From assembly GCA_016932165.1 (NCBI GenBank), contig JAFGDK010000080.1:1-64000 (forward strand): 64,000 bases of DNA. Direction: 5' to 3'. The translations under genes were made by a program, and so were the position numbers. Below, in pieces: positions 32,297 through 51,480 of the stretch (positions within the stretch are counted from its first letter, which is position 1; the number at the start of each line of letters is the position of its first letter). Origin of the DNA: Anaerolineales bacterium (GTDB taxonomy: Bacteria > Chloroflexota > Anaerolineae > Anaerolineales > UBA11579). The notes under the pieces are model-generated. The model was not told where the DNA came from and did not search any database. It was given only the letters and a program-made list of their open reading frames with translations.

Positions 32297-33549
32297 ACCC
32301 TTCTCACTTTCTCCTCGAGATCCGCAAGTTGTTCCGGATTGCTCTCGTCCAGAAAGCGGTTATCGTCCTGCTGCGGGCCGCCTGGGTTGGCGGGGGAGTG
32401 TATATCCTCTGCTGGGGCACAAACCGGTTATGGAGCTGGTTCCCCCAGCAGGATGGCTGGACTGTGTATGCGGCTTTGGTGGCAATTGCGATCCTTGTTT
32501 CTCTTTTGCGGTATCTCAGACCAAACCGGGCCTTTGTCTGGCGGCTGGACCGTACCTTTGAACTGGGTGAACAGGTTTTTACCGCCTATGAAAGAATACA
32601 TGCGTTGGGCGAAGGCTCCAGACAGGATCCCGGCACGCAAATGCTGCTGGAAAGTGAGGCAGTCGCCAATCTGCCAAAGATCAGACGCCGGGTGATCGGG
32701 CACAGCTGGCAGTTCCAGCGGGAGATCGAGTCCACCATCGTGGTGCTGTTGATGCTGGTGGTGATCTACCTGGCCGGGATTGGCAGCCTAGACCTGATTT
32801 CTGCTGGCAGTGAGTCTGGTTTGCTGCCACCAGTCCCTAAAGAGCCCCAGGCCAGGGATATCTTTCGCAGAGGCATCCCCGGGGAGGAAATTGTGACAGT
32901 CCCTGAGGGAGATTCTTCTTCGCCACCAGAATTTGCCGGCAGCAACTCGCCAGATGCATTTTGTGATCCCAACCAGCTCCTCGACCAGCAAGCCTGGCAG
33001 CAGACCCAGCAAGTGCTGAACCAATTGGGAGAGCGGTTGTGCTGTGGATCGGCTGCGCTGCAGCTCAGCCAGGCGCTTAAATTCCAGGATTATCAGACCG
33101 CCAGTGACCAGTTCAGCGTGATGGCCGAGAAGATCGTGGACTACTCGGACGAAACCCGCCAGCTCCTTGCTGACCAATTCCTGGAGAGTTCTGTCCAGTT
33201 CCAGCAGCTCAGCCAGCCAGATGTTTACCAGGTGTTCTCGGAGGCCACAGCGGCCTTGCTGGGTGATTCGTTTGCTGAGATGGCCGAAGGTTTGGACGGG
33301 CTTGCCCTCCTGATGCAGCAATTTGAACGCCAGCAGCGTTGTATCTCCATCGCCGATTGGCAGCCTGGCAGCCAATGGGTACCTGCCGATCAAGGAACGA
33401 TCTCCTCTGGCATATTGGAGATCAGTTCTCCGTCTGATTTTTACTCACTGGAGGTGCCTTCCTTCACAGGTGTAAATTCAGAAATGCTGTTCTACGAAAT
33501 TCCGTTGGAAGATGCAGATGTGGTATCGTCGTATTTTTCGCCTGAGTAA
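32293..33549 (+). CDS. Membrane protein of the MoxR/VWA operon, unknown family
   Basis: 418 residues from a GTG that overlaps the previous stop. Three membrane helices lie in the first 180 residues (around 20-40, 52-70 and 152-172). The C-terminal 230 residues are soluble and rich in Gln, Leu and acidic residues, with helical stretches such as QQAWQQTQQVLNQLGERL. No catalytic motif is visible. The N-terminal layout resembles membrane proteins found with DUF58/VWA genes. It ends 38 bp inside the next gene. Confidence 0.65.
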   Translation: MNPSHFLLEIRKLFRIALVQKAVIVLLRAAWVGGGVYILCWGTNRLWSWFPQQDGWTVYAALVAIAILVSLLRYLRPNRAFVWRLDRTFELGEQVFTAYERIHALGEGSRQDPGTQMLLESEAVANLPKIRRRVIGHSWQFQREIESTIVVLLMLVVIYLAGIGSLDLISAGSESGLLPPVPKEPQARDIFRRGIPGEEIVTVPEGDSSSPPEFAGSNSPDAFCDPNQLLDQQAWQQTQQVLNQLGERLCCGSAALQLSQALKFQDYQTASDQFSVMAEKIVDYSDETRQLLADQFLESSVQFQQLSQPDVYQVFSEATAALLGDSFAEMAEGLDGLALLMQQFERQQRCISIADWQPGSQWVPADQGTISSGILEISSPSDFYSLEVPSFTGVNSEMLFYEIPLEDADVVSSYFSPE

Positions 33550-34489
33550 GCAGGTGATTCAGGCTGTCCCCAAGCTGTTTATCCGCCCCAGTAAAGGGAA
33601 TGGAGAGGGACACCGGCTTAACCTGGAAGCTCTGCGCCAACTGGAGCGTCTGCAGATCCGCGGCAGCCGGGCTTTGCGCGGGGACCGTACCGGCGGACGG
33701 ATTTCTCACCGGCGAAAGCCGGCTTCTGAATTCATCGAGCACCGCATGTATGTTCCTGGAGACGATATCCGCTTTGTGGACTGGCAAGCCACGGCCCGGC
33801 ACGAGCAGGTTTTTATCCGCCAGGGCGAGATGCCCAAGGATGTGCTTGTTTATTTGTTGGTGGATACCTCAGGTTCCATGCTGTGGGGCAAGCCGCCCAA
33901 ACGTGATACTCAACTGGCTGTGGCCACTGCGCTGGGGGTTTCCGCTCTTCAGAACGGAGACCGGCTCTATGTGGTTCCGTATGGTGAAAACCCTAATCCT
34001 GAATTCGGACCTGCCAGCGGGAAAGGGCATCTCACCGGCTTTACCCGCCATCTCAACCAGCTTTCATATGGCGGTGAATCACATCTGGAAGCCGCGGTCC
34101 AGTCGCTGACACACAAGGTTGCCCGCGGCGGGGTGGTCTTTATCCTCTCCGATCTGCTCGAACGCGGTGATCTTGGACGGGTTCTCTCCTCTCTCCCGGC
34201 ACCCAAATGGTGGGTCAATGTACTTCATCTGCTCCATCCCGCCGAGGTTGCACCAGAAATTCGCGGCTCCTGGGTATTGGAGGATAGTGAAACCGGACTC
34301 GCCATCAATTACGATCTCTCCAATGAGGCCATCCGCAGATACCAGCAGCGGGTGGTAGACTGGTGCGAACAGCTGGAGATGACCGCGGTTGCCCATCATG
34401 CCTTTTATCTGATGATCGATACCGATGCACTGCTGGATAAAGAAATTCTGCCTCTGCTGCGAGAAAGGCAGGTACTGCTTCCCTTATGA
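33512..34489 (+). CDS. DUF58 protein
   Basis: 325 residues. The DUF58 core EHRMYVPGDDIRFVDWQATAR is near residue 80, followed by a VWA-like domain (VYLLVDTSGSMLWGK) that retains the metal-binding D-x-S-x-S. No membrane helix. DUF58 proteins accompany MoxR ATPases in aerotolerance-type and cofactor-insertion systems. The start overlaps the previous gene by 38 bp, and the stop overlaps the next start (ATGA). A second ATG at 33518 is an equally possible start. Confidence 0.88.
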   Translation: MQMWYRRIFRLSKQVIQAVPKLFIRPSKGNGEGHRLNLEALRQLERLQIRGSRALRGDRTGGRISHRRKPASEFIEHRMYVPGDDIRFVDWQATARHEQVFIRQGEMPKDVLVYLLVDTSGSMLWGKPPKRDTQLAVATALGVSALQNGDRLYVVPYGENPNPEFGPASGKGHLTGFTRHLNQLSYGGESHLEAAVQSLTHKVARGGVVFILSDLLERGDLGRVLSSLPAPKWWVNVLHLLHPAEVAPEIRGSWVLEDSETGLAINYDLSNEAIRRYQQRVVDWCEQLEMTAVAHHAFYLMIDTDALLDKEILPLLRERQVLLPL

Positions 34490-36285
34490 ATTTCCTGAAT
34501 CCTTGGGCATTCCTTGGTCTCCTCAGCCTCCCGGCGATCATCGCCCTCCACTGGCATTTTCAACGCAACAGCCGGGTGGTGGTCTCCAGTATGTTCCTCT
34601 GGCGCTTCCTGGATGAAAAGTTTCAGGGCAACAAAATGAATTTTCTCCACATATCCTGGCTGCTGATCCTCGATTTGCTGGTCGCCCTGGTGCTAACCCT
34701 CGCCCTGACCCGCCCGGTGTTGGAACTCCCATCGTTTGGGGCTGGCATCCGCCAGCAGGTGATCCTGCTCGATGATTCCGCCAGTATGCTTGCCCTGGAG
34801 GGTTCTTCTAATCGCTTTGCTGAGGCTATTGAAGTGGCTGCTGGGATCATCGAGGACAGCGGCGACAAGGGTGAGGTTGTCTTAATCACTTTTGGCGGTA
34901 AGGCGGAGTTGGTTGCCCAGGGAGTGGACGAAGATTTTTCCGCCTTCGCTTCCCGTGTGCGTCAACTCCAGGCCTCCGGTACGGGAGAAGACCTGCGCGC
35001 CGCGCTGGCGATTGCGCAGCGGTTGGAAAACCCGCGCTTACCGCAAAGTGTTACCATCATCACCGATGGGGCTTACCCTGTGCCTTCCCTGGATGGTTTT
35101 CCGCAAGAGATTGAATGGAGCTTTGTCGGTGATGGGGATAACAACCAGGCGGTGCTGGATTTGTCGGTGGAGGGCAGCCGGCAGGCCCAGGTCGATCTTT
35201 TCTTTCGCCTGGCAAACTACAGCAGACAGCCTGTCACCCGGGAAGTTGAAGTCAGCGTGGACGGCAGTCAGATCACCAGCCTGGCGCTTGAACTGCCCCC
35301 CAACAGCCTCACGCCCCAAACGGTAGCCGTGACCGGCGGGGGAGAATCCGTCTCGGTGCAGCTGCTGGGTACCGATCAGATGCCTGCGGATGATGTGGCA
35401 GTTGTTGGAACAGCCAGGGACCGAGAGGTGAAGGTTGCCATTGTCGCTAATACTCCTTATCCCCTGGACCGCGCGATCGAAACGATTCCTGAAGCCAGTT
35501 TGGATGTGTTCACCCCGGCTGGTTTCCTAAATAATGAGACCTATGACCTGGTGATCTTCCGTGATTTTGTTCCCCCAGTCTGGCCCAGTGGGATAACCCT
35601 CATCTTTGACCCCCCGCCGATAAGCTCTGTGATCTCGGTTGGAGACCTTATTGCGGTGCAATCGCAGGCAGAGGTGTTGCCGGGATCCATTCTGATTGGC
35701 GCCGGGATGGAAAGCGTCCGTTGGGAATTTGGCTATGACCTCTCGGATGTTCAGAATTTCGAGCCGTTGGCTGAGGCTGACAATATTCCCCTGGTTCTTC
35801 ACCAGAAAACCGGTCAGAGTGATATCTATCTCTTCGCACTGCTGCTGGAGGCCGGTAACTTCACCAAGCATCCTGCTTTCCCCATCCTGCTCTCCCGGTT
35901 TGTCTCCCAGGCCAGGGATTTTGCCCCGCAGCCGGGTTACCTGGCAGGAGATGTGCTCATCTTGCCGGATGGTGAGACAAGCATCCAAACGCCTTCCGGG
36001 GAGTTGATTTCCGGGGAAGAAACCGGCAAGATCAACCTTGTGGAACCCGGGCTCTACCGCTATTTGGCTGCTGATAATTTTGGGGGCATCCATGAAGTGC
36101 TCTTTGGGGTCAATCTGGGCGAGGCGGATGAAAGCGACATCACCCCGCAGGACTGGCGCGCCGGGGTTGCGGTTTTTACCCCTGAGGATGGGGGGTGGCA
36201 GCGGGTAGAGGTTCATCTCGGCCCTTGGCTGCTAGCGATTGCTATCATATTGCTGATGGTGGAAGCCTGGAGGGCCTGGCGGTGA
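34486..36285 (+). CDS. BatA-type VWA membrane protein
   Basis: 599 residues. An N-terminal BatA-like region (MNFLNPWAFLGLLSLPAIIA) and two membrane helices precede a VWA domain (QQVILLDDSASMLALEG, intact D-x-S-x-S, then GTGEDLRAALAIA). A long beta-rich extracytoplasmic part and a final helix (WLLAIAIILLMVEAW) follow. It overlaps both neighbours in a start/stop fashion, so it is strongly coupled. Likely a membrane partner of the MoxR ATPase, possibly in envelope stress or protein maturation. Confidence 0.85.
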   Translation: MNFLNPWAFLGLLSLPAIIALHWHFQRNSRVVVSSMFLWRFLDEKFQGNKMNFLHISWLLILDLLVALVLTLALTRPVLELPSFGAGIRQQVILLDDSASMLALEGSSNRFAEAIEVAAGIIEDSGDKGEVVLITFGGKAELVAQGVDEDFSAFASRVRQLQASGTGEDLRAALAIAQRLENPRLPQSVTIITDGAYPVPSLDGFPQEIEWSFVGDGDNNQAVLDLSVEGSRQAQVDLFFRLANYSRQPVTREVEVSVDGSQITSLALELPPNSLTPQTVAVTGGGESVSVQLLGTDQMPADDVAVVGTARDREVKVAIVANTPYPLDRAIETIPEASLDVFTPAGFLNNETYDLVIFRDFVPPVWPSGITLIFDPPPISSVISVGDLIAVQSQAEVLPGSILIGAGMESVRWEFGYDLSDVQNFEPLAEADNIPLVLHQKTGQSDIYLFALLLEAGNFTKHPAFPILLSRFVSQARDFAPQPGYLAGDVLILPDGETSIQTPSGELISGEETGKINLVEPGLYRYLAADNFGGIHEVLFGVNLGEADESDITPQDWRAGVAVFTPEDGGWQRVEVHLGPWLLAIAIILLMVEAWRAWR

Positions 36286-38828
36286 GTGGCGGATTATTGG
36301 TTGCCCTGGCCTTGTTTGCTACCGCTGGTTTTGCCTGGCTGGCTTATCGGTTGTCCCTGCGCTGGTGGCCCAGCCTGCTGATTCGCCTGGCGGTGCTGGG
36401 ATTGGTGCTGGCTGCCCTCAGCGCCGGCTGGCTGGGCTCTACGGAATCCCAACCCGACCACCAAATCTTGCTTGTGGATCTCTCCGACAGCGTTTCTGAG
36501 AGAGGAAAGCAAACCGCCCGGTCTTTCTCTGAAGACTGGCTGCAGGACGGGGAGAACCGAGAGGTGATCGTCTTTGGCGCGGATGCAGATTTTCTCCTGT
36601 CTGGGGAATGGCCCCAGGTGGAAACTGGCGGCACAGACCTGGCTGGTGCCCTGCTCCTGGCACAGTCCCGCCTGGTTGGTGATCCAGGCAGGATCCTGAT
36701 CGCCACCGATGGGCAGGTATCTGACCAACAGCAGGTCGACACTGCCCTGGATGAGATCACCGCCGCGGGTAACACGATCCAATTCATCCCCCTTGAGTCT
36801 ATCGACCAGCCCGGGGATGTGTACCTTGCCAGGGTGCGGGGGCCAGACCAGATCTGGCCAGGGACCGAGTTCCAGCTTGAGGTCACTACCTTCAGCCGTG
36901 TGGGCGGGGATGCTGTCCTTGAGGTCTCGGCTGGAGAAAATGTGGAGAAAATTCAACTCTCGCTGGAAGCTGGCGAAAATCGTAAAATCATTCCACTCAT
37001 AGCTGGAGAAACCGGGGTACTGCCGCTCAGCTTCCGGGTGGTGAAAGAAGATGATCCCTTCCCGGCAAACAATACGTTCTACAAATCCGTCCGGGTGCTC
37101 CCCCAGCCGCAGGTCTTATTTGTCACCCAGGCGGCGGCTTCAGCGCAGAAGTTGATCCGCAGTCTTGAGAGGGAGGGCTTCCCGGTGACAGTGATCTCGC
37201 CGGCTGAGTTCCCCCGTTCTGTCTATGACCTGCAGCCGTACCCGGCAGTCTTTATCCATGACATACTTGCACAGGACCTCGATCTGGAACAAATGCAAGC
37301 CCTGGAGTTGAATGTTGTTCAGTTTGGCAAGTCTGCGATCTTCATTGGTGGCCGCAACAGCTTTACCCTTGGCGGTTACCAGAATACTCCTCTTGAGCGG
37401 CTCCTCCCGGTGATTCTGATCCCGCCAACCCGCGTCCAGCGGGTTCCATTGACCTTTTTGATGGTGCTCGACCGGTCAGGAAGTATGGCTGGTGACCGGG
37501 ATTCTGAATTCCCCCCGATTGAACTGACCCGCGAAGCAGCCATGCGCGCCATAGAAACGCTCAGGCCGGATGATTATATCGGCGTGTTGACTTTTGCCAG
37601 TACTCTCAATTGGGATGTGCCGCTTGCCCCGGTGGGGGACGGTCTGGTGCTGCGGACTGTCCAGGACAAGGTCAGCCAGATCGAGGCGGTCGGCGGCACT
37701 AATATGTATCTTGGCCTGGAAGAGGCTGTTGATGAACTGATCCATTCCCTCACTACCGATTATCTACACATCCTGCTGATGTCCGACGGGGTCAGCGGAG
37801 ACGGCTCCCGCCAGGAATTTGAAACCCTGGTTGGAGAAGCCCGGCAGCGCGGAGTGACGATCTCAACGATTGCCCTCGGGCGCGAGAGCGATCCTGAAAC
37901 GCTTTCTGCTATTGCCGGCGCCGGGGGAGGGCGCTTCTATTATGTGCTTGAACCTGTTGACCTCTCCACCGTGATGGTCGATGAAACCCGAGCTGTGCAG
38001 ACCGAGAATGTCCAGGAGGGGCGCACCAATCTGATCCTGGGGATCGACAACCACCCGATTCTCTCAAAAATTATCCTAGATTCCCGCGCCCTTGCAATGG
38101 AAGGTTATCTTGCTGTGCAAAGCAAATCCACTCTCGGCGCTGAGGATGTGCTCCTCTCCGGTAATTTCGGAGACCCGATCCTTTCCGTCTGGCAGGTTGG
38201 GCTGGGGCACACGGCTGCCTGGATGGGGGATGTGGGGGAGTCCTGGCTGCCGAACCTGGATACCTGGCCTGAGTTGGGCAAGTTCTGGAGACAGGTGATC
38301 TGGTATTCTCTCCCCGATCCATCGGTTACCGAACCAGAGGCGGCAGTCCGCGTGGAAGGTGATCAGGTGCTGGTGAAGATCCAGCTCACCCAGGCAGACA
38401 GGCAAGCTTTGGATGCCGGGTCGCTGCGTTTCCTGCTGCCTGGCATGGATGGGCAGATTGATGAAGCACTCGTGGAGCAGGTGGGTGTCTCTACCTTCCA
38501 GGCAGTCTTCCCGCGGCCGGCGGATGGGGCTTATGGCGGGGTGATCCAGTTCACAGCTGGCGGGGTGGAATCGCAAATTTTAGTGCCGTTTGCGGTGAAC
38601 TACCCGGAGGAGTGGCAGTTTGCTGACCCTCAGATAGGGGAAGAGCAGATTGAGGTCTGGACGCAAAACCCCGCAGCCGGAAAAATTGAGCTGGAAGCCG
38701 GCTCAGCGCCTGAATCTGCACGACTAGAAACCAGCCGCGCTTTTGAAATTCTGATAGGATTGTTATTGGTCTCCTGGCCGCTGGAGGTCGCCATCCGCCG
38801 CTGGCGGATGCCGTGGCGTCGTCCATGA
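36282..38828 (+). CDS. Large membrane protein with two VWA-like and one glutamine-amidotransferase-like region
   Basis: 848 residues from a GTG overlapping the previous stop. Two N-terminal helices (up to about residue 55) precede a first VWA-like domain (QILLVDLSDSVSERGKQ), a Rossmann-like region resembling glutamine amidotransferases (QVLFVTQAAASAQKLIRSLE), a complete second VWA domain (FLMVLDRSGSMAGDRDSE) and a C-terminal helix (LIGLLLVSWPLEVAI). Such proteins are regular members of MoxR/DUF58/VWA clusters. Cargo unknown. Confidence 0.82.
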   Translation: MSGGLLVALALFATAGFAWLAYRLSLRWWPSLLIRLAVLGLVLAALSAGWLGSTESQPDHQILLVDLSDSVSERGKQTARSFSEDWLQDGENREVIVFGADADFLLSGEWPQVETGGTDLAGALLLAQSRLVGDPGRILIATDGQVSDQQQVDTALDEITAAGNTIQFIPLESIDQPGDVYLARVRGPDQIWPGTEFQLEVTTFSRVGGDAVLEVSAGENVEKIQLSLEAGENRKIIPLIAGETGVLPLSFRVVKEDDPFPANNTFYKSVRVLPQPQVLFVTQAAASAQKLIRSLEREGFPVTVISPAEFPRSVYDLQPYPAVFIHDILAQDLDLEQMQALELNVVQFGKSAIFIGGRNSFTLGGYQNTPLERLLPVILIPPTRVQRVPLTFLMVLDRSGSMAGDRDSEFPPIELTREAAMRAIETLRPDDYIGVLTFASTLNWDVPLAPVGDGLVLRTVQDKVSQIEAVGGTNMYLGLEEAVDELIHSLTTDYLHILLMSDGVSGDGSRQEFETLVGEARQRGVTISTIALGRESDPETLSAIAGAGGGRFYYVLEPVDLSTVMVDETRAVQTENVQEGRTNLILGIDNHPILSKIILDSRALAMEGYLAVQSKSTLGAEDVLLSGNFGDPILSVWQVGLGHTAAWMGDVGESWLPNLDTWPELGKFWRQVIWYSLPDPSVTEPEAAVRVEGDQVLVKIQLTQADRQALDAGSLRFLLPGMDGQIDEALVEQVGVSTFQAVFPRPADGAYGGVIQFTAGGVESQILVPFAVNYPEEWQFADPQIGEEQIEVWTQNPAAGKIELEAGSAPESARLETSRAFEILIGLLLVSWPLEVAIRRWRMPWRRP

Positions 38829-38856
38829 CAGCCAAAACTTTTTATAGGAGAAAAAC

Positions 38857-39864
38857 ATGGAAAACGGAGAAAACAGAACTCTGACCGTTGAGCAGTACCG
38901 CCAGATTGCGGTGGCGATTGATAAACAACTCTCCCGCTATATCGTCGGGCAGCGTGAGCTTGTCCATGATCTGTTGGTGACTCTGTTGGCGGGGGGCAAT
39001 GCGCTGCTTGAGGGCGTCCCCGGATTGGGCAAGACTCTGCTGATTCAGACTCTCTCCGAAACGCTGGCCTGCTCCTATGCCCGCATCCAGTTTACCCCCG
39101 ACCTGATGCCCGCCGACATCCTCGGAACGATGATCCTCACCACCCAGGAAGACGGGCAGCGCGGCTTCAAATTTGAGAAGGGACCAATCTTCGCCAACCT
39201 GGTGCTTGCCGACGAGATCAACCGGGCGGCCCCGCGCACCCAATCGGCCCTGCTGGAGGCGATGCAGGAGGGGCAGGTGACCATCTCCGGCCAGACCTAT
39301 GATCTGCCCAAACCCTTCTTCGTCCTTGCCACCCAGAACCCGATCGAAATGGAGGGCACCTACCCGCTCCCTGAGGCGCAGATTGACCGCTTCCTCTACA
39401 AGCTATATGTTCCCTATCCCAATGAGAATGACCTGGTGGAGATTGCCCGGCGCACCACTGGCGCATCTCTGCCGGTGGTGGAACGCGTTTCATCTGGCAA
39501 GGTGCTGGAGGCGATGCAGAAGCTCACCCGCACCGTGCCAGTCGCTGAGCCGGTCTTCCGTTACGCAGCCCGCCTGGTGGGTGCCACCCAGCCTGACCAG
39601 CCTGAGGCGCTGCCCTCGGTCAAGCGCAATCTGCGTGTAGGGGCCAGCCCGCGCGGCCTGCAGGCCCTGATCTGGGGCGCCAAAGCCGAAGCCTTGCTGG
39701 ATAACCGTAAAGCTGTCTCGATAGAGGATGTCCGCAAGGTGATCTATCCCGCCCTGCGCCACCGCCTGATCCTTAACTTTGAAGCCCAGGCCGAAGGAGT
39801 CAACCCTGATACAATCCTTAGAGAGATCCTCAAGAATGTGAAACTGCCGGTGGTCAAGGATTAG
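38857..39864 (+). CDS. MoxR-family AAA+ ATPase
   Basis: 335 residues. Walker A GVPGLGKT (53-60), Walker B with LVLADEINRAAPRTQSALLE, sensor region ATQNPIEMEGTYPLPEAQID and an arginine-rich lid (RRTTGA). Residues about 260-275 carry GASPRGLQAL, usual for MoxR. MoxR ATPases act as chaperones that activate VWA-containing partners, and two such proteins plus a DUF58 protein lie directly upstream. It is the last gene of the operon here, whereas MoxR genes usually come first. Confidence 0.95.
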   Translation: MENGENRTLTVEQYRQIAVAIDKQLSRYIVGQRELVHDLLVTLLAGGNALLEGVPGLGKTLLIQTLSETLACSYARIQFTPDLMPADILGTMILTTQEDGQRGFKFEKGPIFANLVLADEINRAAPRTQSALLEAMQEGQVTISGQTYDLPKPFFVLATQNPIEMEGTYPLPEAQIDRFLYKLYVPYPNENDLVEIARRTTGASLPVVERVSSGKVLEAMQKLTRTVPVAEPVFRYAARLVGATQPDQPEALPSVKRNLRVGASPRGLQALIWGAKAEALLDNRKAVSIEDVRKVIYPALRHRLILNFEAQAEGVNPDTILREILKNVKLPVVKD

Positions 39865-41251: not shown

Positions 41252-41287
41252 TATCTTATGACCGAAATAATCCAAAGGAGGAACTCC

Positions 41288-41785
41288 ATGAAAATCGGCA
41301 TCATCAGCGACACCCACGATAACCTCTGGCGCCTGGCGGAAGCGATCCCCCACTTGCAGACGACCGAGGCGGTGATCCACTGCGGGGATCTGATCTCTCC
41401 GTTCATGATCCACCGCTTAGGGCAGGGGTTATCTGGGAAACCGGTGCATCTGGTGTGGGGCAACAACGACGGCGATAGGCGCACCGTTTCGAAGGCAGCT
41501 GAGGGTTACACAGGCTTTCAGATCCACGGGGAATACGCAGAAATTGAACTGGGAAATTTTCGCATAGCCGTAAACCATTATCCTGAAATCGGGCGCGTTC
41601 TGGCAGCCTCAGATAAATTCGATCTGGTCTGTTATGGTCACGACCACACCGCCCACGATGAGATTATCGGCAGCACTCTCCTGCTCAACCCTGGCGAGAT
41701 CATGGGATTGAACGGCAGTTCATCCATTGTCATCCTGGAGACAGAAACGCTGGAATTTGAACGGATTACAATCTGGACTGAATAG
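41288..41785 (+). CDS. YfcE/MJ0936-type metallophosphoesterase
   Basis: 165 residues, calcineurin-like fold. The metal ligands are in GIISDTHDN, VIHCGDLI, VWGNNDGDR and YGHDHTAH. Small proteins of this family hydrolyse phosphodiesters such as cyclic nucleotides. The natural substrate is uncertain. Strong ribosome site AAAGGAGG ahead of the ATG at 41288. Transcribed divergently from the Ctp protease. Confidence 0.9.
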   Translation: MKIGIISDTHDNLWRLAEAIPHLQTTEAVIHCGDLISPFMIHRLGQGLSGKPVHLVWGNNDGDRRTVSKAAEGYTGFQIHGEYAEIELGNFRIAVNHYPEIGRVLAASDKFDLVCYGHDHTAHDEIIGSTLLLNPGEIMGLNGSSSIVILETETLEFERITIWTE

Positions 41786-41944
41786 GAAATTTTGGGAGAT
41801 AACAAACCAAAGTCCCTGTCCCGCTTGATGCGGGGGAGGGGTTGGGTCGTGGATGAAATAAAAAAAACACTATTTGCTGGTTGCCAGTTCTCGGGCAGGC
41901 GAGACTCCAGCCATCAGATTTTTTCTAAGTAATTTACTTGATCC

Positions 41945-42064
41945 TTACCTTGAGACCGCCAGTTTGGTCATTATCCCTTCACTGTTCAGGGTGATACGGG
42001 CGTGATGGGTGGATTTATCCCTAACGATCTGTTTGCTGAAGGAGACAATTTCCCTCTGAGTTTA
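41945..42064 (-). pseudogene. 3' fragment of a C25-like protease gene (partial duplicate)
   Basis: On the minus strand, codons ending with SKQIV, HHARITLN, MTKLAVSR and TAA match the C-terminal 35-40 residues of the protease encoded at 43702-46218. The upstream part is missing and the frame closes at about 42065. Between the two copies lie a methyltransferase gene and a small gene of opposite direction. It is a truncated duplicate or the scar of a lost paralogue. Confidence 0.85.
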
Positions 42065-42299
42065 ATTGATTCGACCTGACTTTGCTGCTAAGTTTGAGGG
42101 AATTAAGGATTTGCTCCAATATAAGATAAATTATACCCAAATTATAAGATATAATTATATAGATTACCTCATAAGTGATCCTTTAAACTTCACCCATCTC
42201 GTAAATCCCCATCGAGTGATCTGATCAGACCTGACATCGATTTAGCTTTCCCTGGGGACCAACCGACTTTTCGGCCATTTATTTCTTAAGAGGCAAAAG
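42065..42299. other. Gene-free AT-rich stretch
   Basis: The 514-bp gap 41786-42299 holds the protease fragment, a CCCGC-ttgat-GCGGG hairpin near 41822-41836 and, from about 42100, an AT-rich segment with TATAATTATATAG that may provide the promoter for the methyltransferase. I see no further gene. Confidence 0.5.
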
Positions 42300-43121
42300 A
42301 TGAAAACCCAAAGAGAAAACGGAAACCCATTATCCTCTGCTGAACCCTGGAATCTTGTAGCAGATGGATATACTACAGAATTGAAGTATTGGTCAGAATT
42401 AATTGCCGGCAAAGCTTTGGAATTGGCAAATCTCCCCTCCTCACCGCATATTGTGGATATAGCGGCAGGTCCAGGCTCGCTGTCACTTCTGGCGGCCAAG
42501 GCAGGCGCAGTCGTCAGTGCCATCGATTTTTCAGAGAATATGGTTACCAATCTATTAAGGAGTTCTAAGGAAATGGGCTTAACCCTCGCAGATGTGAGAG
42601 TTGGGGATGGTCAGAATTTGCCTTACGATGATTGTCAGTTCGACGGAGCATTTTCGATGGTTGGACTTATTTTTTTCCCAGATCGAGGTGCTGGCTTCAG
42701 AGAAATGTGCCGGGTTTTACGTCCGGGTTGCAGGGCAGTTGTCAGCAGCATTGCATCCATCGAGGGACCTTTTGTGCAGGTCCTTGAGGTTATGAGTGAG
42801 ATTGTACCAGCTATGCCTAACACCTCAAACAATAAACCCCCTTTAAGCAATTCAAACGATTTTTCTCAGGAAATGTCAGACGGGGGATTTCGTGATGTCA
42901 CCATTCATACCGTTACCGAAGTTTTCACCACTCCGACACTGGCGGATTTCTGGTGGAAAACGCAGCGCTCTGCCGCCCCGGTCGCCCTGATCAAAAGCAG
43001 CCTGGGGGAGGAACAATGGGATGAAGTCTCTACCGAGGTGATTCGTCACCTTCAAGAGACGTTTAGCAAAGGATCTGTCGAAGAGGTTTTTACCATGCAT
43101 TTGGGGGTGGGGGTTAGATGA
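42300..43121 (+). CDS. SAM-dependent class I methyltransferase
   Basis: 273 residues. Motif I is VDIAAGPGSLSLLAAKAG (about 57-74), followed by VSAIDFSENMV and FDGAFSMVGLIFFPD, the layout of UbiE/COQ5-like small-molecule methyltransferases. GAGG stands ahead of the ATG. Its stop (TGA) overlaps a possible ATG of the next gene, so the two are coupled. The substrate is unknown. The pair is flanked by two copies of the protease 3' end. Confidence 0.85.
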   Translation: MKTQRENGNPLSSAEPWNLVADGYTTELKYWSELIAGKALELANLPSSPHIVDIAAGPGSLSLLAAKAGAVVSAIDFSENMVTNLLRSSKEMGLTLADVRVGDGQNLPYDDCQFDGAFSMVGLIFFPDRGAGFREMCRVLRPGCRAVVSSIASIEGPFVQVLEVMSEIVPAMPNTSNNKPPLSNSNDFSQEMSDGGFRDVTIHTVTEVFTTPTLADFWWKTQRSAAPVALIKSSLGEEQWDEVSTEVIRHLQETFSKGSVEEVFTMHLGVGVR

Positions 43122-43141
43122 TAGATTCTAATGAGGATTAT

Positions 43142-43525
43142 ATGTCAGCGCCGATTGTCTTTATCACAACGTTTGTGATCGAAGAGGGTGCTCTTGAGAA
43201 GTTCAAAGAAGCTGCTCAACGTTCAACCAATTTCCTTAAGGATAATGGTCTGCAGCTTTTGGCTGAGGTTTGCATCGATGAAAAAGACATGCGCGCACAC
43301 GGCATTCAGGTACATAGGGACTCGGAATCAATATTAGATCATTGGCTGCTCTCCGATCCTTATATGAGCAATGTGATGCAGTATATTAGAACCACACATG
43401 TTGAGATATATGGTCAGCCAAATGAGGCTGTGTTGGAAGGCATGCGCAGACTCACCTCTCAGGGTGCAGTAATCACAGTAACTCCCCATCTTACCGGTTT
43501 CAGCCGGCTTGTGGCCCCAGATTAG
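43142..43525 (+). CDS. Small ABM-like (dimeric alpha/beta barrel) protein
   Basis: 127 residues from the ATG at 43142 (GAGG six bases upstream). An ATG at 43118 overlapping the previous stop is an alternative start. IVFITTFVIEEGALEKFKEAAQ at the N-terminus and a beta-alpha-beta arrangement resemble antibiotic-biosynthesis-monooxygenase-like ferredoxin folds. No cofactor motif. It is coupled to the methyltransferase and may act on the same small molecule. Confidence 0.6.
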   Translation: MSAPIVFITTFVIEEGALEKFKEAAQRSTNFLKDNGLQLLAEVCIDEKDMRAHGIQVHRDSESILDHWLLSDPYMSNVMQYIRTTHVEIYGQPNEAVLEGMRRLTSQGAVITVTPHLTGFSRLVAPD

Positions 43526-43649
43526 ATTTGTTCTCTCCGAAAATAGGACATTGGAGTTCAGTGGATTTAAACAGAAGCTATCTGAGCAGCTTTTCATTGG
43601 TTTAACCTTGGAACTGCAGCCCCTTATCAAACAGTCATCCATAAAATAA

Positions 43650-43678
43650 AAAATCCGTTGGTCACCCCAACGGATTTT
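43650..43678 (-). terminator. Terminator of the protease/TPR operon
   Basis: AAAATCCGTTGG-tcacc-CCAACGGATTTT, a 12-bp perfect stem. On the minus strand it is followed by TTTATTTTAT. It ends the long minus-strand operon and may also stop the convergent small plus-strand genes. Confidence 0.9.
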
Positions 43679-43701
43679 AATAGTCCTTTATTTCGAAGTA
43701 T

Positions 43702-46218
43702 TTATCTTGAGACTGCCAGTTTGGTCATTTTTCCTTCACCGTTCAGGGTGATACGGGCGTGATAGTTGTGGGTGGTTTCATCCTTGACGATCTGCTTGCT
43801 GAGCGTTATTACCTTGCGGGTGGGGGTTGATTTGGCAACCTTCGGGTCCGTTGCCTGGCCTTCAGCAAAAGAGAACTTTGCCCCTTGCATACCGGGCAGG
43901 TAATCCTCCACAATCCCTTTCACTTGACGGATGACTTCTTCCGGCACCTGAGAATTGTCTACCAGGTTGGCTTTATCGCTCACCATTTTGATCCTTTCCG
44001 GGTTGAAGTTAGGCTGCAGGGCAAGTTTGGCATTCGCTGAAATTTGCCCGCCAAAGGCACTCGCCAATGGGTCTCCGTAGAGGACGAAAGAGATCAAGGT
44101 CTTCTGGTCTTCGCCGTCCAGGTAACCCTGGCGTTTGTCCATCTCTTTCGCCAGATGGATCTTTGCCCGCCGCAGGGCTTCGCCTGCCGGATAGCCGTCC
44201 TGGGTCAGGCTCCAGAAGGTCTTGCCCAGCAGGTCAGCGGCGATCAGCGGGGTGGTGATTGAACCGTATGAGGTGCAGGTTGAGCCGATCAGCGCCTGGG
44301 TGCCAGAATCGAGGAACTTCAGGCAGATTGCCTCTTCCACGCGCTTGTCGATGATGTTGGCCCCAAAGCAGGCCTCTGAGAATACGATCTTTGGCGCCGC
44401 GCCGCTGTTGCGGATATCTGCTGGGCGCAAGGCAATCGGGTAATCCGGTCCCAGTTGTCCCTCCACCGGGTCTCTCTGACCGTACCATTCGGCGGCATCC
44501 TCAAGCCCGTGGAGGTTAAAGTATGCCAGATGGCTTGGGCTACTGGTGACCTGGCCGATGCGCTTTGCCGTGACAGGGGGTGAGATTTTTAAGTGGTGCG
44601 GTTTGCCGATCGGCCGGTAGACGGCATGGGAGGCCCGCCGCCAGACTTCAGCCGAATAGCCAAAGTTTGGTTTTAGCCTTCTGGATCCTCTGAGAGGGAA
44701 GAGCCAGCGCAACCACCAGTTCAAGCCGGAGGGCATTGGTTTGATTGCTTGCTCTTCACGTGCTTTGATAATTTTCTGAAGCTGGTTCAGCAGGGCTGCG
44801 GGGTCTCCATCCGAACTGCCGGGCAGCCTTCCCAGCGGCCATTTGGGGATAAAGTAGTTCTCATCCTCGCAGGCATACGGGTTGTCGCTGGGAACGTGCA
44901 CATCGAAATCGTCCAATGGGTTGGGCAGCAGGTGAAAGGGAACAACTTCATTGCCCCCGACGATCAAAATCGCGCCGATCCTTTCTCCATTTGTCGCCAG
45001 CGATTTATCCAGGTCTTGAATGAAATTCTTGATCGACCAGGGGTCATCAGGCAGTGACGGGGGCAGGCCGAACGCGTCTGCACACATCGGGTCGTCTATG
45101 TAGATGGTATATGCATTCCATCCCTTGATCTGTTTGGTGGTTCTCTCCACCAGGGTGATTGCATCGCAGATTTTGGTTAGATTCTCGCTCCCATATTGGG
45201 ATTCAAGTTTATTCTTTGCAGTTAGGATCACATAAGCCGGGTAACGTGCATCCACTACCCCCAGGTCTGGATTGTGGATCTGGACGGCCAGCTCTTCCAA
45301 TTCTCGCCTGGCTTTGCTGACTGCCTTGCGAGATTCGGCGATTTCGTGCCTGGATTTGCCTAAATAACGGTTTCGGGCTTTTTCAGGCGGTTTGATGCCA
45401 ATTGCTGCTGGTCTGCCAGCTGGGAGTTGATTCCAGCCTACCGCCGTGGCCACATCAGCGGGGATAGGCAAATCCAGCTCGATCCGCGGAGATTCCGGCC
45501 ACAGGTTGATGTAACCATGCCCGGCACCCCAGATACGTAATGCCACCTGACCGCCGATATCCAGCGAAACCGCGTGGTGCAGCAGGTTGATCCCCTCTTC
45601 TTCCTGACCGGATTTGATTAGCGCATCGGCGTAGATCAGGATGCAGGCCAGTGTGTCCGGCCAGCGTTTGGCATACCTTTCTGCAGTGGAAAGGATCACA
45701 GCCTGATCCATATTATCCAGCATGAATTTGAGGTGCAGCACATGGGCCAGCGGGGAATCTGGCTGCTGGGCAAGTGTATGCTGATAGGCCAGCTCTGCCT
45801 GTTGCCGGCTTCCCTCTTTCTGGTATCTAAGTGCCTGGATCAACGGATCGCTCCATCCAGGCAGCGATTTTGATTCTGGAATCCGGCCGCCCAGCGAGCG
45901 GATACATTCCTGGGCAGTCTGCACCGATTGGTATTCCATCAGACTGGTGGAATAGGCCAGCAGGCGCTGGGCTGGGAGGTATTCCGGGTCGGTGTAAACA
46001 ATCTTTTTGATCAATGGTACAGCTTCATCGATCCGGTTTTCTTTCAGGCAGGCTTGAGCATAGAGATGTTCGATTACGAGATCACCACTGTAAATATCCA
46101 ACCAGGCCTGTGCCAGGCGGCGGGCAAACCGGAACGATTCCACCTGGATCGCATTGGTCAGCAGTGAAATGACCGTACTGCGGTCGAAATTGTGCGTGTT
46201 CTCTGTGTTTATTTTCAT
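43702..46218 (-). CDS. C25 (gingipain/caspase-like) protease-domain protein
   Basis: 838 residues, no signal peptide. Residues about 1-230 are TPR-like helices. Residues about 300-720 form a peptidase C25-like domain: GAILIVGGNEVVPFHLLP, then the acidic DENYFIPKWPLGRLPG block, YFNLHG with His570 and VFSEACFGA with Cys617, the expected His-Cys dyad of clan CD. A C-terminal region of about 110 residues is beta-rich. Clan CD includes caspases and CHAT proteases, and cytosolic CHAT/C25 proteins with TPRs are known as regulated proteases in bacterial defence. It starts 15 bp after the giant TPR gene (AAGGGA site). Confidence 0.85.
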   Translation of the reverse strand: MKINTENTHNFDRSTVISLLTNAIQVESFRFARRLAQAWLDIYSGDLVIEHLYAQACLKENRIDEAVPLIKKIVYTDPEYLPAQRLLAYSTSLMEYQSVQTAQECIRSLGGRIPESKSLPGWSDPLIQALRYQKEGSRQQAELAYQHTLAQQPDSPLAHVLHLKFMLDNMDQAVILSTAERYAKRWPDTLACILIYADALIKSGQEEEGINLLHHAVSLDIGGQVALRIWGAGHGYINLWPESPRIELDLPIPADVATAVGWNQLPAGRPAAIGIKPPEKARNRYLGKSRHEIAESRKAVSKARRELEELAVQIHNPDLGVVDARYPAYVILTAKNKLESQYGSENLTKICDAITLVERTTKQIKGWNAYTIYIDDPMCADAFGLPPSLPDDPWSIKNFIQDLDKSLATNGERIGAILIVGGNEVVPFHLLPNPLDDFDVHVPSDNPYACEDENYFIPKWPLGRLPGSSDGDPAALLNQLQKIIKAREEQAIKPMPSGLNWWLRWLFPLRGSRRLKPNFGYSAEVWRRASHAVYRPIGKPHHLKISPPVTAKRIGQVTSSPSHLAYFNLHGLEDAAEWYGQRDPVEGQLGPDYPIALRPADIRNSGAAPKIVFSEACFGANIIDKRVEEAICLKFLDSGTQALIGSTCTSYGSITTPLIAADLLGKTFWSLTQDGYPAGEALRRAKIHLAKEMDKRQGYLDGEDQKTLISFVLYGDPLASAFGGQISANAKLALQPNFNPERIKMVSDKANLVDNSQVPEEVIRQVKGIVEDYLPGMQGAKFSFAEGQATDPKVAKSTPTRKVITLSKQIVKDETTHNYHARITLNGEGKMTKLAVSR

Positions 46219-46233
46219 CGGAATCCCTTAGAT

Positions 46234-49200
46234 TTAATCACGTTGATGGATAATCGCCATGGCAATCACAGAGGCGAGATGACGTTTTATGTTGGTGTCT
46301 TCTGGAGCCAGGGCAGCAGCCTGCTTCAACATTGTTTCGGCTTGCTGATAGTTCTTGCCCTCTTTATGCATTAAGCCGGCTTCCAGGTATGGCCGCGGGT
46401 CTTCTGGAGCAATCCGGATGGCATTTTCCAAATATTGGAGCGCCTTATTGTAGGATCGTTGGCTCTTGAGCGTTTTGGCGATCTCCAAATACGCCTCAAG
46501 GAATTGCGGCATACGGTTAATCGCTTTACTCAAGTGGCTGATCGCCTGATCCAGCTGACCGGTCCGGTGGAATAATGCCCCTACCTGGTAATGCAGCCGG
46601 GTTACCTGCTTTGGAGAGAGCTGGGTACCGGCGTTCTTGATTGCATATTGCCCGGCCTTGATCGCATCCACCAGATTTTCCGTTTGGAGATATGCTGCGC
46701 TCAATCTGGCGAGGATTAAAGGGTTCTTGGGGTCTTGTTTGGCCAGATTTACCAGCAGTTTGATTTCCTCATTAATTCCGGCTGTTTCTCTGATGATGGC
46801 AGCTTTTTGAAGCTGCAGGGGAGTGGCATCCACGGCATGGGAGATGACCTCATCTAAAACGTTGAGTGCTTTCTCACGGTCATTCTTCCGGATCAGCAGC
46901 CTGGTGAGGTGGATAATATCTTCAGTTTCTCTCGGGTTCAGTTCAATCGCCTGCCGGATGAATTTATCCCGCTTTAAGAGGGAACCATGATCAGCGGCGA
47001 TATCGGCAGCCATGAGCAAGAATTTGGGCAGTTTTGGTGCGAGTTTGACCGCTTTTTCAATGCTGGCTGTAGCTGCGCCATATTCCCCGGCTGCATGGTG
47101 TGCCTGAGCCAGTCTGGCCCAGTAATCGGCATTGAGAGGCTCCTGGTTGACCGCCCGTTCCAGCACACGGATGGCATTTCCAGGCAATCCCCCTTTCATA
47201 TAAGCCAGTCCTAATTTGAATAGGGTGACAGGGTTCTCTGGGTCCAGGTTGGAAGCCTGCTCCATGTGATCAATGGCGCGTTCATATTCCCTGATTTGCA
47301 GAGAGAGGTCGCCTGCCAGGAGCTGCCAGTCTGGTTCATCTTGCCAAAGTTCCAACGCTTTTCGAATGAAATCAAGCGCAGGCGCATTCCGATTAGCGCG
47401 GTGGCAAAGGTGGGCAAAATGTGCCTGGTAAATTGGGTTTTTTGTATAGTTTGCAGCCAGGTCTTCTGCAATCTCTAAAGCAATCCCCAAATCGGAGAGG
47501 CTGTATGTCAGAGAGAGCTGGAATTTGACTGCCTTGTCGTTCAACCACTCGTCCGGGATGCTGTTCAGATCCAGGGGTTGATCTACACGACGGGAGGCGG
47601 CAAGCAGGGCGGCCAAATCTTCTTTAGTCACCAAGGTGGGGGAGGGGTAGGGGGCCTGGTTTTTGATCGCGTAGCTGCCGCGCTGTTCCCAGCGGAGAAT
47701 TTGGACGGCTGCGTCTGATTCTGGGGTGAGTTGGTAAAGATTCTCAATGGCCTGCTCGAATTGCGCCCGACTTTCTTCGCTGAAGGCAGCTTTTCCCGGG
47801 CCATTGGACCGGGCTTTTACTGCTGAACAGGCTAGCTGGTGTTCTGCCTGGCGGGTTAATGTCCTCGCAATGTAGAGATGAGCCCGTGGTTCTTTGAGCC
47901 CTTCTTGGGGCAGTTTTTTGATGATGTTCAATGCTTCAGGCCATTTGTTCAGGGCTGCTGCGGCTTCACCCAAAGTGAGGAGGAGATTGGTTCGATCAAA
48001 TGGATCCAGTCTGTTGTTTTCAATTGTGTTGATTGAACTCCAGGCATGCTCAAAGCAAGCGGCTGCCTCATCGCTATTCCCCAGTCCCGACTGGATGCGG
48101 GTTTGGACTGCAAGTGCACGCAGATCATTGGGTTTGATCTTTAAGGCCAGGTTGAGCGCTTCGTCTGCCAGATAGTGGTTTTCCAGGCTATCTTCACCGA
48201 TGATTAACTCAGCCATCATGATTTGCCATTCGAATGCTGCCGGCTGAGTTGTCACCTGGCGGAGAACCCGCTGGGCTTCTCCAAATTTCAGGCATGCCCG
48301 GAAGATTTCCGCTGCCTGAAGTGCCGCATCAGGTGATTGCGGCGCCAGTTGGCTGGCCTTGGTGACATGGGTCAGGCAGGAGGGCAGGTCATGTTCTGCG
48401 CGCAGTAACTTTGCTGCTTGCAGGTGCAATTCTGCCGAGCCTGGGGCCAGCCGCAGGGCTTCCTCAATCGAGGAGGCAGCCGCCTTTGGCCGCCCAAGCT
48501 GTTCCAGAATCCTGGATTTAGTGATCCATAAAGAAGCATTCTTTCCCTCGATCTGAAGATGTTTATTCAGCGTTTCCAGGGCTGCCAGGTACTGCTCAGA
48601 TTCGATTTGCAGCCTGGTTAATTCAGCCAGTAAATCTTTGGATTGGTAATCACAAAGCTCCAAAGCCTGTTCGATGAAGGGGATGCTTGTATGTGGATCG
48701 TTCATCCCGATCAGGGCGTGGGCAGCCATCTTTAGATCGGTAATATCCACATTTTCCACTTCAAACAACTGTCCAAAGGTCTCTTTGGCCTGGGCTTCCT
48801 GACCATTCTCAAGTTGGATATATCCCAGCCGGACAATGATCTCAGTATTGTGGGGAGCAATCTGGCTGGCAAGGTTTAGATTATCAGTGGCCAATGCCAG
48901 TGCATCTAACGCGACTGCCTGGTCGGCTATCCACAGGTAATTCTGGAGTGTGGGGGCAGCCAGTTCCTGGATCTCGGCCAGAATGCTGAGCGCTTCGGGT
49001 TTGAGATTAGCGTGGATATAGGCCTGGCACAGGGTTTTCTTCAGGGGCAGGTTGTCAGGTATCTGGTTTAATCCTTCCCTTAAAAAAGTAATTGCCACAT
49101 GCGGTTGTTCGGTCTTAAATGCAGATTCAGCGACCCCGATTGTCAGAGCAGTGAAATACTCCGGCTGGCGGGAGAGCTCTGTCTGCATGGCTTCCTGGTA

Positions 49201-51480
49201 CAACTCCAGGGCTGCGCAGTGATCATCTGAGGCCGCGGTGGCCTTTGCCAGCAGTATCCGGCCCCGTTCATGCTGAGGATCGAGTTCCAGGACGGTGTTG
49301 ATGTGGGTCAGGGCTTCTTCTGGGCTTTTTTCCAGCTTTAGGATCAAATCTGCATAGTCCAGCCGGGTTTCAATGCTAGGCTCCTGGGACTGGACTACCA
49401 GAGTGAGAACAGGGAATGCAGTGCTGAAGTCTCCGGTATTTACCAACGCCTGGGCATACCAGGTTGCCAGTTCGACATCGGTGGGGGATTGCTGATAAGC
49501 TTTTCCGAATGCTGTGACCGCTTCTTCAATATAGCCTCCTTGATATAATGCCTTACCCAGTTGCAGCCCGATCTCTTTCCGTGTCTTGATGTCGGTATCT
49601 GGTTGGATAAATCGAGCTGCCTGGTTGAAGGCTGCCAGCGCTTTTAAAGGTTCGCCTTGGGTCTGGTAGGCAAGCCCAATCTGCAAGTTAATTCGGGCAT
49701 TGTTGGGATTGACGTTGTCTGCTGAGATCAGCTTTTCCAGGGCTTTCTCAGGTTCGTTGTATTTGCTGTGCAGGTCCGCCAGTTCCAGCCAGGAATCAAT
49801 TCTTTCAGGATTATAGATAATCGCCTTGCTCAGACTTCGCTCTGCAGAACGGATATCGTGAGTCGATTGATAAACCCGCGCCAGCATGTGCAGCAGTTCC
49901 CAGTTTTCAGGATCGACAGCCAAGCCTTTCTCGCAGGCAGCAATTGCATCAGATGCCTGTCCGGTTTGCAGATATGCCTCGGCCAACAAGACAAAATCTC
50001 CTGCCACAAATATCTCTGATGAAGTGATTAATTTCTCGGCTTCCTTGCGGGCTTCTATCCAGTCCCTATTTTGCATCAGAATATCGATCAATTCGCGGTG
50101 GATAGCAGGCAAGTCTCCTGCAAGGGCCCGGGCAATATAGGTGTATTCCAAAGCTTCGCTCAGCTTGCCAAATTGTTTCAGGGCTCGAGCATACAGGCTT
50201 ATCAGGGTGGCATTGTTTGGTGTGATTTTTTGGGCCAAGGCGCCAATCTGGACAGCTTCTTCTACCAGATTGACCGCCAATAATAATTCGATCAAGGTGT
50301 GTATAAATTCTGGAGCCAGGTGTATGCTGCCTTTTAGTAATCCTTTTTTTGTCTCAGTGAATGCCTGCTGGGCCAGCCGTTGGGCTTGTTCTGGTTCCTG
50401 GTTCTGGATTGCCATACGAGCAGAGGCCAGTAAAGCAGCATGGTTATTTTTTGTTTCACCACTTTTACGGAGTACGATCTCAGCCGTATCTTCAAGCGTC
50501 CCGGTGTGGATCTGAGCCAGGGTAATGTTCTGGTTACCGGTGATGATCTCCTCCTCCAGGGCTGAAACCTTGCTGATCGCCTCCAGAGCGGTCTTTTGAT
50601 CATTGCCGCGTGCGGCAGCCTGGGCCAGTTGAGCGGTCAGGTCAGCCTGCAGGCTGGTGGTCATCTCCCGAATCTGATCCAGGGCGGGAAGCACGGCTTG
50701 ATAACTGCCCTGCATTTTCAGCAGTTCTGTGCGTTCCATAAAGGTGATCAAGGTTTGCATCGGTTTGCCCTGGTCAGGTTCTGCCTCAGGGAGGGTTTCG
50801 AGCAGATCGTGTGCCAGATGGCGGGTGAGGGCTGGATCGTGGCTTTCAAAACTTTGGAGAATAGATAAGCGCTGTAGGGAGGGGATATTTAACAATGCAG
50901 GCAGCAACGCGGCTGTTTGGTTTTTCATCTCCTGCGGTTGGGATGTGACCAGTTGTAAAGACAGCAGATGGTGGTTCTCATCGGGTGACTGTAACAGCGC
51001 CTCAAGCAGCTTTCCTGCGTGAGGAAGCAACCCGTAAAGAATGCTGAGGATGGTCTGCCATAATAGTGGGTTGGAAGAAACCTGGTCGAGGAATGCCGTT
51101 TCAACAGTATCCAGCATTAACCAGCGTTCCCGGATGGCAATTGCCGCCAGGGCGGCCGTGGTCAGGTCATTTTCCGTATCTGGGCTGCCAGCAGGGGAAA
51201 GCAGAGCTTCCAGTGTGTTGGCTGCCCGAAACTTTGTCTCTTGGTCCAGATTATTGGGCAGCGCTGAGAGCATTTTCGGGCCGCTGTGGGGGAACAGCCA
51301 GATGAGGGCGATATTTGCCGGCATCCAGGGCTTAAGCCCAGTCAGTTGTGCAGTCCTGATCCGGTTGAGGAACTCGGTGTCCTGTAATGCGGACCAGATG
51401 ATTGTATCCTGGCGCAGGGCGCGCACCACGATATTAAACTCTGCGTCATTGAATTGTTGCTTGAGTGTGTGGATGATCAT
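46234..51480 (-). CDS. Giant TPR protein (1748 residues)
   Basis: No signal peptide or membrane helix. The first 250 residues are helical and Leu-rich without clear TPR consensus. From about 260 to the end there are dozens of TPR-type helix pairs (for example ALEYTYIARALAGDLPAIH, AIAACEKGLAVDPENWELLH, AIRVLERAVNQEPLNADYW), broken by a less regular stretch near 1215-1350. Such superhelices bind proteins. With the C25-type protease 15 bp downstream and the small membrane protein 14 bp upstream it probably acts as scaffold or sensor controlling the protease. Ribosome site weak, so translational coupling is likely. Confidence 0.88.
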   Translation of the reverse strand: MIIHTLKQQFNDAEFNIVVRALRQDTIIWSALQDTEFLNRIRTAQLTGLKPWMPANIALIWLFPHSGPKMLSALPNNLDQETKFRAANTLEALLSPAGSPDTENDLTTAALAAIAIRERWLMLDTVETAFLDQVSSNPLLWQTILSILYGLLPHAGKLLEALLQSPDENHHLLSLQLVTSQPQEMKNQTAALLPALLNIPSLQRLSILQSFESHDPALTRHLAHDLLETLPEAEPDQGKPMQTLITFMERTELLKMQGSYQAVLPALDQIREMTTSLQADLTAQLAQAAARGNDQKTALEAISKVSALEEEIITGNQNITLAQIHTGTLEDTAEIVLRKSGETKNNHAALLASARMAIQNQEPEQAQRLAQQAFTETKKGLLKGSIHLAPEFIHTLIELLLAVNLVEEAVQIGALAQKITPNNATLISLYARALKQFGKLSEALEYTYIARALAGDLPAIHRELIDILMQNRDWIEARKEAEKLITSSEIFVAGDFVLLAEAYLQTGQASDAIAACEKGLAVDPENWELLHMLARVYQSTHDIRSAERSLSKAIIYNPERIDSWLELADLHSKYNEPEKALEKLISADNVNPNNARINLQIGLAYQTQGEPLKALAAFNQAARFIQPDTDIKTRKEIGLQLGKALYQGGYIEEAVTAFGKAYQQSPTDVELATWYAQALVNTGDFSTAFPVLTLVVQSQEPSIETRLDYADLILKLEKSPEEALTHINTVLELDPQHERGRILLAKATAASDDHCAALELYQEAMQTELSRQPEYFTALTIGVAESAFKTEQPHVAITFLREGLNQIPDNLPLKKTLCQAYIHANLKPEALSILAEIQELAAPTLQNYLWIADQAVALDALALATDNLNLASQIAPHNTEIIVRLGYIQLENGQEAQAKETFGQLFEVENVDITDLKMAAHALIGMNDPHTSIPFIEQALELCDYQSKDLLAELTRLQIESEQYLAALETLNKHLQIEGKNASLWITKSRILEQLGRPKAAASSIEEALRLAPGSAELHLQAAKLLRAEHDLPSCLTHVTKASQLAPQSPDAALQAAEIFRACLKFGEAQRVLRQVTTQPAAFEWQIMMAELIIGEDSLENHYLADEALNLALKIKPNDLRALAVQTRIQSGLGNSDEAAACFEHAWSSINTIENNRLDPFDRTNLLLTLGEAAAALNKWPEALNIIKKLPQEGLKEPRAHLYIARTLTRQAEHQLACSAVKARSNGPGKAAFSEESRAQFEQAIENLYQLTPESDAAVQILRWEQRGSYAIKNQAPYPSPTLVTKEDLAALLAASRRVDQPLDLNSIPDEWLNDKAVKFQLSLTYSLSDLGIALEIAEDLAANYTKNPIYQAHFAHLCHRANRNAPALDFIRKALELWQDEPDWQLLAGDLSLQIREYERAIDHMEQASNLDPENPVTLFKLGLAYMKGGLPGNAIRVLERAVNQEPLNADYWARLAQAHHAAGEYGAATASIEKAVKLAPKLPKFLLMAADIAADHGSLLKRDKFIRQAIELNPRETEDIIHLTRLLIRKNDREKALNVLDEVISHAVDATPLQLQKAAIIRETAGINEEIKLLVNLAKQDPKNPLILARLSAAYLQTENLVDAIKAGQYAIKNAGTQLSPKQVTRLHYQVGALFHRTGQLDQAISHLSKAINRMPQFLEAYLEIAKTLKSQRSYNKALQYLENAIRIAPEDPRPYLEAGLMHKEGKNYQQAETMLKQAAALAPEDTNIKRHLASVIAMAIIHQRD

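Follow-up and report, generated by a model that had tools for sequence, protein, structure and literature searches.

A duplicated protease 3' end on either side of an inserted methyltransferase gene pair in an Anaerolineales genome

The locus

The window analysed here is a stretch of 64,000 nucleotides from the genome of an Anaerolineales bacterium (contig JAFGDK010000080.1, positions 1 to 64,000 of the forward strand). It carries a C25-like protease gene, the 3' end of which occurs twice (table 1). Between the two copies lie a methyltransferase gene and a gene for a small ABM-like protein, both on the + strand and opposite to the protease. The protease has an N-terminal TPR region and, together with the giant TPR gene upstream of it (43702-51480), forms a pair that is conserved in Anaerolineae.

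Is the protease of the C25 type, as an earlier note on this DNA had it? The Peptidase_C25 profile matches three of the seven aligned proteins (best E 3.8e-17), while the protein of the window itself is unmatched. The assignment is thus supported by way of the orthologues.

Further along, on the phosphoesterase side, a cluster of DUF58, VWA-BatA, VWA and MoxR ATPase genes (33512-39864) adjoins an S41 peptidase gene. The VWA-MoxR-S41 portion of this cluster is retained in two of the related genomes (G002 and G008).

Table 1. Features of the protease locus, with their positions in the window, strands and the evidence or remarks that go with them.
Feature	Position	Strand	Evidence or remark
Calcineurin-like phosphoesterase gene, next to the protease 3' end in the ancestral order	41258..41785	+	Pfam Metallophos_2, E 4.2e-31
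Spacer between phosphoesterase gene and tail fragment, 159 bp	41786..41944		single copy in the genome
Displaced protease tail	41945..42040	-	DNA and profile match
Possible decayed extension of the tail, about 20 codons (tentative)	42041..42100	-	profile score
Class I SAM-dependent methyltransferase gene, presumably acquired	42300..43121	+	Pfam; homologue in G206; GC3
Gene for small protein of ABM fold, presumably acquired; start maybe at 43142	43118..43525	+	model and PDB matches; homologue in G206; GC3
Terminator-like hairpin with perfect 12-bp stem, behind the stop of the intact protease gene	43650..43678	-	hairpin count in the region not above chance
Intact gene for TPR and C25-like protease, ending in the second copy of the repeat (43702-43803)	43702..46218	-	
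TPR-repeat gene, conserved partner upstream of the protease gene	46234..51480	-	

The repeated protease tail

How alike are the two tails? When 41945-42064 was searched against the whole 3.1-Mb genome, the end of the intact protease gene was found in the same orientation at E 7.2e-26, with 84% identity when gaps are counted. No third copy was found in this search. Over the 96 bp that align without gaps the identity is 87.5%, and the longest exact run visible in the alignment measures about 23 bp. The earlier note had described a recurrence of the last 35-40 codons in the same orientation. The recurrence stands, far above chance, but its length does not: in a codon alignment counted from the stop, the repeat comprises this stop and 31 codons at the DNA level. 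The copies differ at 12 of the 96 nucleotides, six of the changes being synonymous and six non-synonymous, a split (P = 0.31) that does not discriminate between the readings weighed below; for dating by synonymous changes the repeat offers too few sites. A profile built from the protease tails of 15 relatives, without the window's own sequence, picks up the fragment at E 2.5e-10. Chance similarity of the copies is ruled out by the E values of the genome search and of the profile.

Upstream of the repeat, the next 84 nt of the two copies are 25% identical in the codon alignment, which is the random level. Since identity drops to this level at 42040/42041, the repeat has sharp edges, the stop codon being one and 42040/42041 the other.

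The fragment has no start codon, and its reading frame is open through to the stop. Relative to the intact tail it has lost two codons by an in-frame deletion of 6 nt. At the informative positions (Leu-to-Phe, Lys-to-Ile and the two lost codons) it is the fragment that shows the derived state, as is expected of a copy without function. Strong conservation of the last residues of the protease (KLAVSR or similar) suggests that the C-terminus has a function. The intact tail is itself unusual. At 65 residues after LPG it is the shortest of the set, the 70 relatives having 68-95, and this part of the gene (43702-43920, - strand) lacks the Cys/His-rich motif (e.g. HEHxxCxGHxCP) of the closest relatives. 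So short and motif-less a tail would fit an altered joint in the tail, though it does not prove one.

Does the fragment extend beyond the repeat? When about 20 more upstream codons (to about 42100) are included in the profile comparison, an in-frame TAA among them, the score climbs from 25.4 bits to 36.1; in fixed register, 21 of the 25,580 frames of the window reach as high a score. At the DNA level 42041-42100 has no match to the intact protease copy. This stretch may possibly be further, more decayed protease tail, and we list it as such tentatively.

Two origins of the repeat may be considered at this point. The first, raised in the earlier note, is that a tandem paralogue was mostly lost, the protease copy on the phosphoesterase side having been replaced by the cassette save for its last codons. 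The in-frame deletion and the open frame of the fragment would agree with this, as would the tentative extension, which has the ancestral linker spacing that the intact copy lacks. On the other hand, DNA identity falls abruptly to random rather than fading, and a full-length protease profile finds no further remnant in the insert. These observations, with the survey of related genomes given below, leave the lost paralogue less well supported, and we consider it rather unlikely. The second is an assembly or strain chimera, for the genome is a draft of 128 contigs, 86% complete and with 3% contamination. However, copies that differ at 12% of positions and by a gap, and that share so short an exact run, are not what a chimera would be expected to leave, and the ancestral gene order is kept on both sides of the insertion. 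We find a chimera hardly credible.

The cargo genes

The methyltransferase matches Pfam Methyltransf_11 at E 7.8e-16. Its neighbour has no Pfam match. An AlphaFold model of that protein (two sequences, pLDDT 82.7) has a ferredoxin-like ABM fold and finds 71 PDB matches at E <= 0.001, the top ones being MupZ of Pseudomonas fluorescens and ABM-family proteins. The earlier note's description of a methyltransferase and an ABM-like gene between the copies, on the opposite strand, agrees with these matches. To judge from fold and family, a methyltransferase with an ABM-like partner would suggest small-molecule tailoring.

Are the two genes coupled, as had also been proposed? The ATGA overlap at 43118 is present. 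However, the ABM homologue in a genome of another family of the class (G206) starts at the equivalent of Met9 (43142), which here would leave a 20-nt gap to the methyltransferase gene. Because the ABM gene may start there, the translational coupling of the pair is uncertain.

In composition the pair stands apart. The GC3 of the methyltransferase gene is 0.464 and that of the ABM gene 0.456, against 0.57-0.74 in their neighbours, and the pair lies in a GC trough extending from about 41800 to 43900. Among the related genomes sampled there is no close relative of the methyltransferase gene, and among 40 of them no relative of the ABM gene; in the 396 genomes of the class, ABM relatives occur in just six others. 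The sole genome found with the pair is G206. There the two genes lie side by side in reverse order, with 64% identity for the methyltransferase and 65-67% for the ABM protein, on a 3.9-kb contig that lacks the protease. From the foreign GC3, the GC trough, the patchy distribution and the recurrence of both genes together in a distant family, we infer that the cargo pair was horizontally acquired.

What might the source have been? A transposon or IS origin was rejected: there is no transposase, the edges of the insert are single copy in the genome and the flanking inverted repeats are weak. An imperfect inverted repeat (42254-42271 and 43649-43666, 18 nt, 83%) lies on either side of both cargo genes. 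The right arm coincides with one half of the terminator hairpin, so the repeat may be due to chance or be a transcription signal. A phage or viral origin was likewise rejected, because the tail repeat has no match in phage records and no methyltransferase relatives were confirmed in viral contigs. A plasmid source was set aside too, only distant relatives of less than 60% identity being found.

The locus in related genomes

What did the locus look like without the cassette? The order S41 peptidase - phosphoesterase - protease is unbroken in four related loci (G007, G008, G030 and L163), the second of which also preserves the order of the VWA, MoxR and TPR genes. In a fifth, G011, the phosphoesterase gene adjoins the protease gene on a short contig. 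The spacer between the two genes in relatives is about 25-190 bp long, and at none of these five junctions is there a cassette or a tail fragment. In the window the fragment lies 159 bp from the phosphoesterase stop. This length lies within the range of the relatives, and the spacer is probably the native one. It contains a short G/C-rich palindrome (41800-41845).

Because the junction in relatives is short and uninterrupted, the fragment occupies the native position of the protease end. The intact protease, for its part, retains its TPR neighbour on the other side. We conclude from these two facts that the copies are separated by an insertion of 1,661 bp. The uninterrupted junction, the foreign composition and the patchy distribution also support the other suggestion of the earlier note, an insertion by recombination at the repeated sequence.

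The nearest genome, G002, is of little help. Its assembly holds two contigs that end inside the protease gene and inside the phosphoesterase gene, and the junction itself is absent. The break could hide a second protease copy of the kind that a lost paralogue implies. An alignment-based search of the genome contigs yielded 80 protease loci where a single-sequence query yielded none. The protease was matched in 33 of 41 genomes, and in 18 of 24 in the family, and none of the genomes searched contains a second such locus, which speaks against the paralogue.

How dynamic is the protease locus? In one relative an unrelated gene, by eye a nucleoside phosphorylase (L167:6869-7630), fills the same gap between protease and phosphoesterase, and there is no copy of the tail. 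In many more distant relatives the phosphoesterase gene is not beside the protease gene, so this neighbourhood is conserved in part of the group only. The earlier claim of a dynamic locus is thus mildly supported for the phosphoesterase side; the protease/TPR pair is stable.

Integrative elements that insert at the 3' ends of genes keep the gene complete and leave the displaced end as a direct repeat. Might such a site-specific element, attached at the protease 3' end and carrying a replacement end, have lost its integrase since? The resemblance is plain, for the insertion lies at the 3' end of a gene that is complete, and the direct repeat ends at the stop codon. However, the insert is very small, with only two cargo genes between the copies, and neither an integrase, a transposase nor another mobility gene was found between them. 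Nor was a recurrent insertion found: at none of the 80 other protease loci is a tail repeated in this way behind the gene, and no second occupied site was seen. Moreover, at 96 bp and just 87.5% identity, the repeat is unlike fresh attachment sites. We regard a lost element of this type as very unlikely.

A proposed history of the locus

The explanation that we prefer, and think probable, is that a cassette was inserted at the protease 3' end together with an incoming tail, the old tail being displaced. From the arrangement in relatives, the S41 peptidase, phosphoesterase, protease and TPR genes would have followed one another in this order in the ancestor, and a short spacer would have separated the phosphoesterase gene from the 3' end of the protease gene. 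It is at this 3' end that a horizontally acquired segment with the methyltransferase and ABM-like genes would then have been inserted. Most likely the segment brought a related protease 3' end of its own, and the incoming and native ends would have recombined, either through one crossover, the incoming molecule being circular, or by one homologous and one illegitimate joint. The chromosomal protease would thereby have stayed complete with one tail, while the other was shifted past the cassette to lie beside the phosphoesterase gene. There, lacking a start codon, it would have decayed. The tail duplication would be a by-product that spared the protease, and no working part of the cassette.

Some points tell against this history, among them the unassembled junction of G002. 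The pair in G206 is in another context and in reverse order, and no donor joining a protease end to the pair was found. The tentative upstream extension of the fragment, moreover, would suit an older protease remnant.

Comparison with known systems

Displacement of gene ends has precedents. In Rhs loci the C-terminal tips are displaced, and a single crossover with a circular intermediate has been proposed (Jackson et al. 2009, PMC2935791). The window shows a like arrangement: behind a complete gene comes acquired DNA of low GC, and beyond this a direct repeat, a fragment of the gene's end that has been displaced and is decaying. It differs in that the conserved tail is itself repeated here, whereas in Rhs a different tip follows the core. 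Further, the protease is no polymorphic toxin, and only one event is seen. In the T6SS arrays of Vibrio cholerae, effector-immunity genes are displaced by homology-facilitated illegitimate recombination (Kirchberger et al., PMC5361080). These arrays and the window have in common that a conserved gene provides one homologous anchor, that acquired genes follow it and that the old end has been moved downstream. However, the cargo here is a methyltransferase/ABM pair rather than an effector-immunity module, and there is no series of displaced ends.

Several marks of gene-end displacement are seen here: a displaced fragment in the same orientation, foreign DNA between the copies and an empty site in relatives. 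The principle is already known; this instance is new. Might the protease 3' end be a recombination landing site of the lineage, at which small cassettes enter with a compatible tail and so always leave the gene whole? We hold this to be a long shot. If true, it would parallel the integrative elements without an integrase, and in a gene that is no polymorphic toxin.

Apart from the insertion scar and the distribution of the cargo pair, the locus speaks of ordinary genome evolution and of no new kind of system. What the pair adds is that a methyltransferase and an ABM-like gene occur as a unit across distant families of Chloroflexota. The locus itself offers a snapshot of a single event, in which foreign genes have entered beside a conserved gene that remains unbroken, with the displaced end as the scar.
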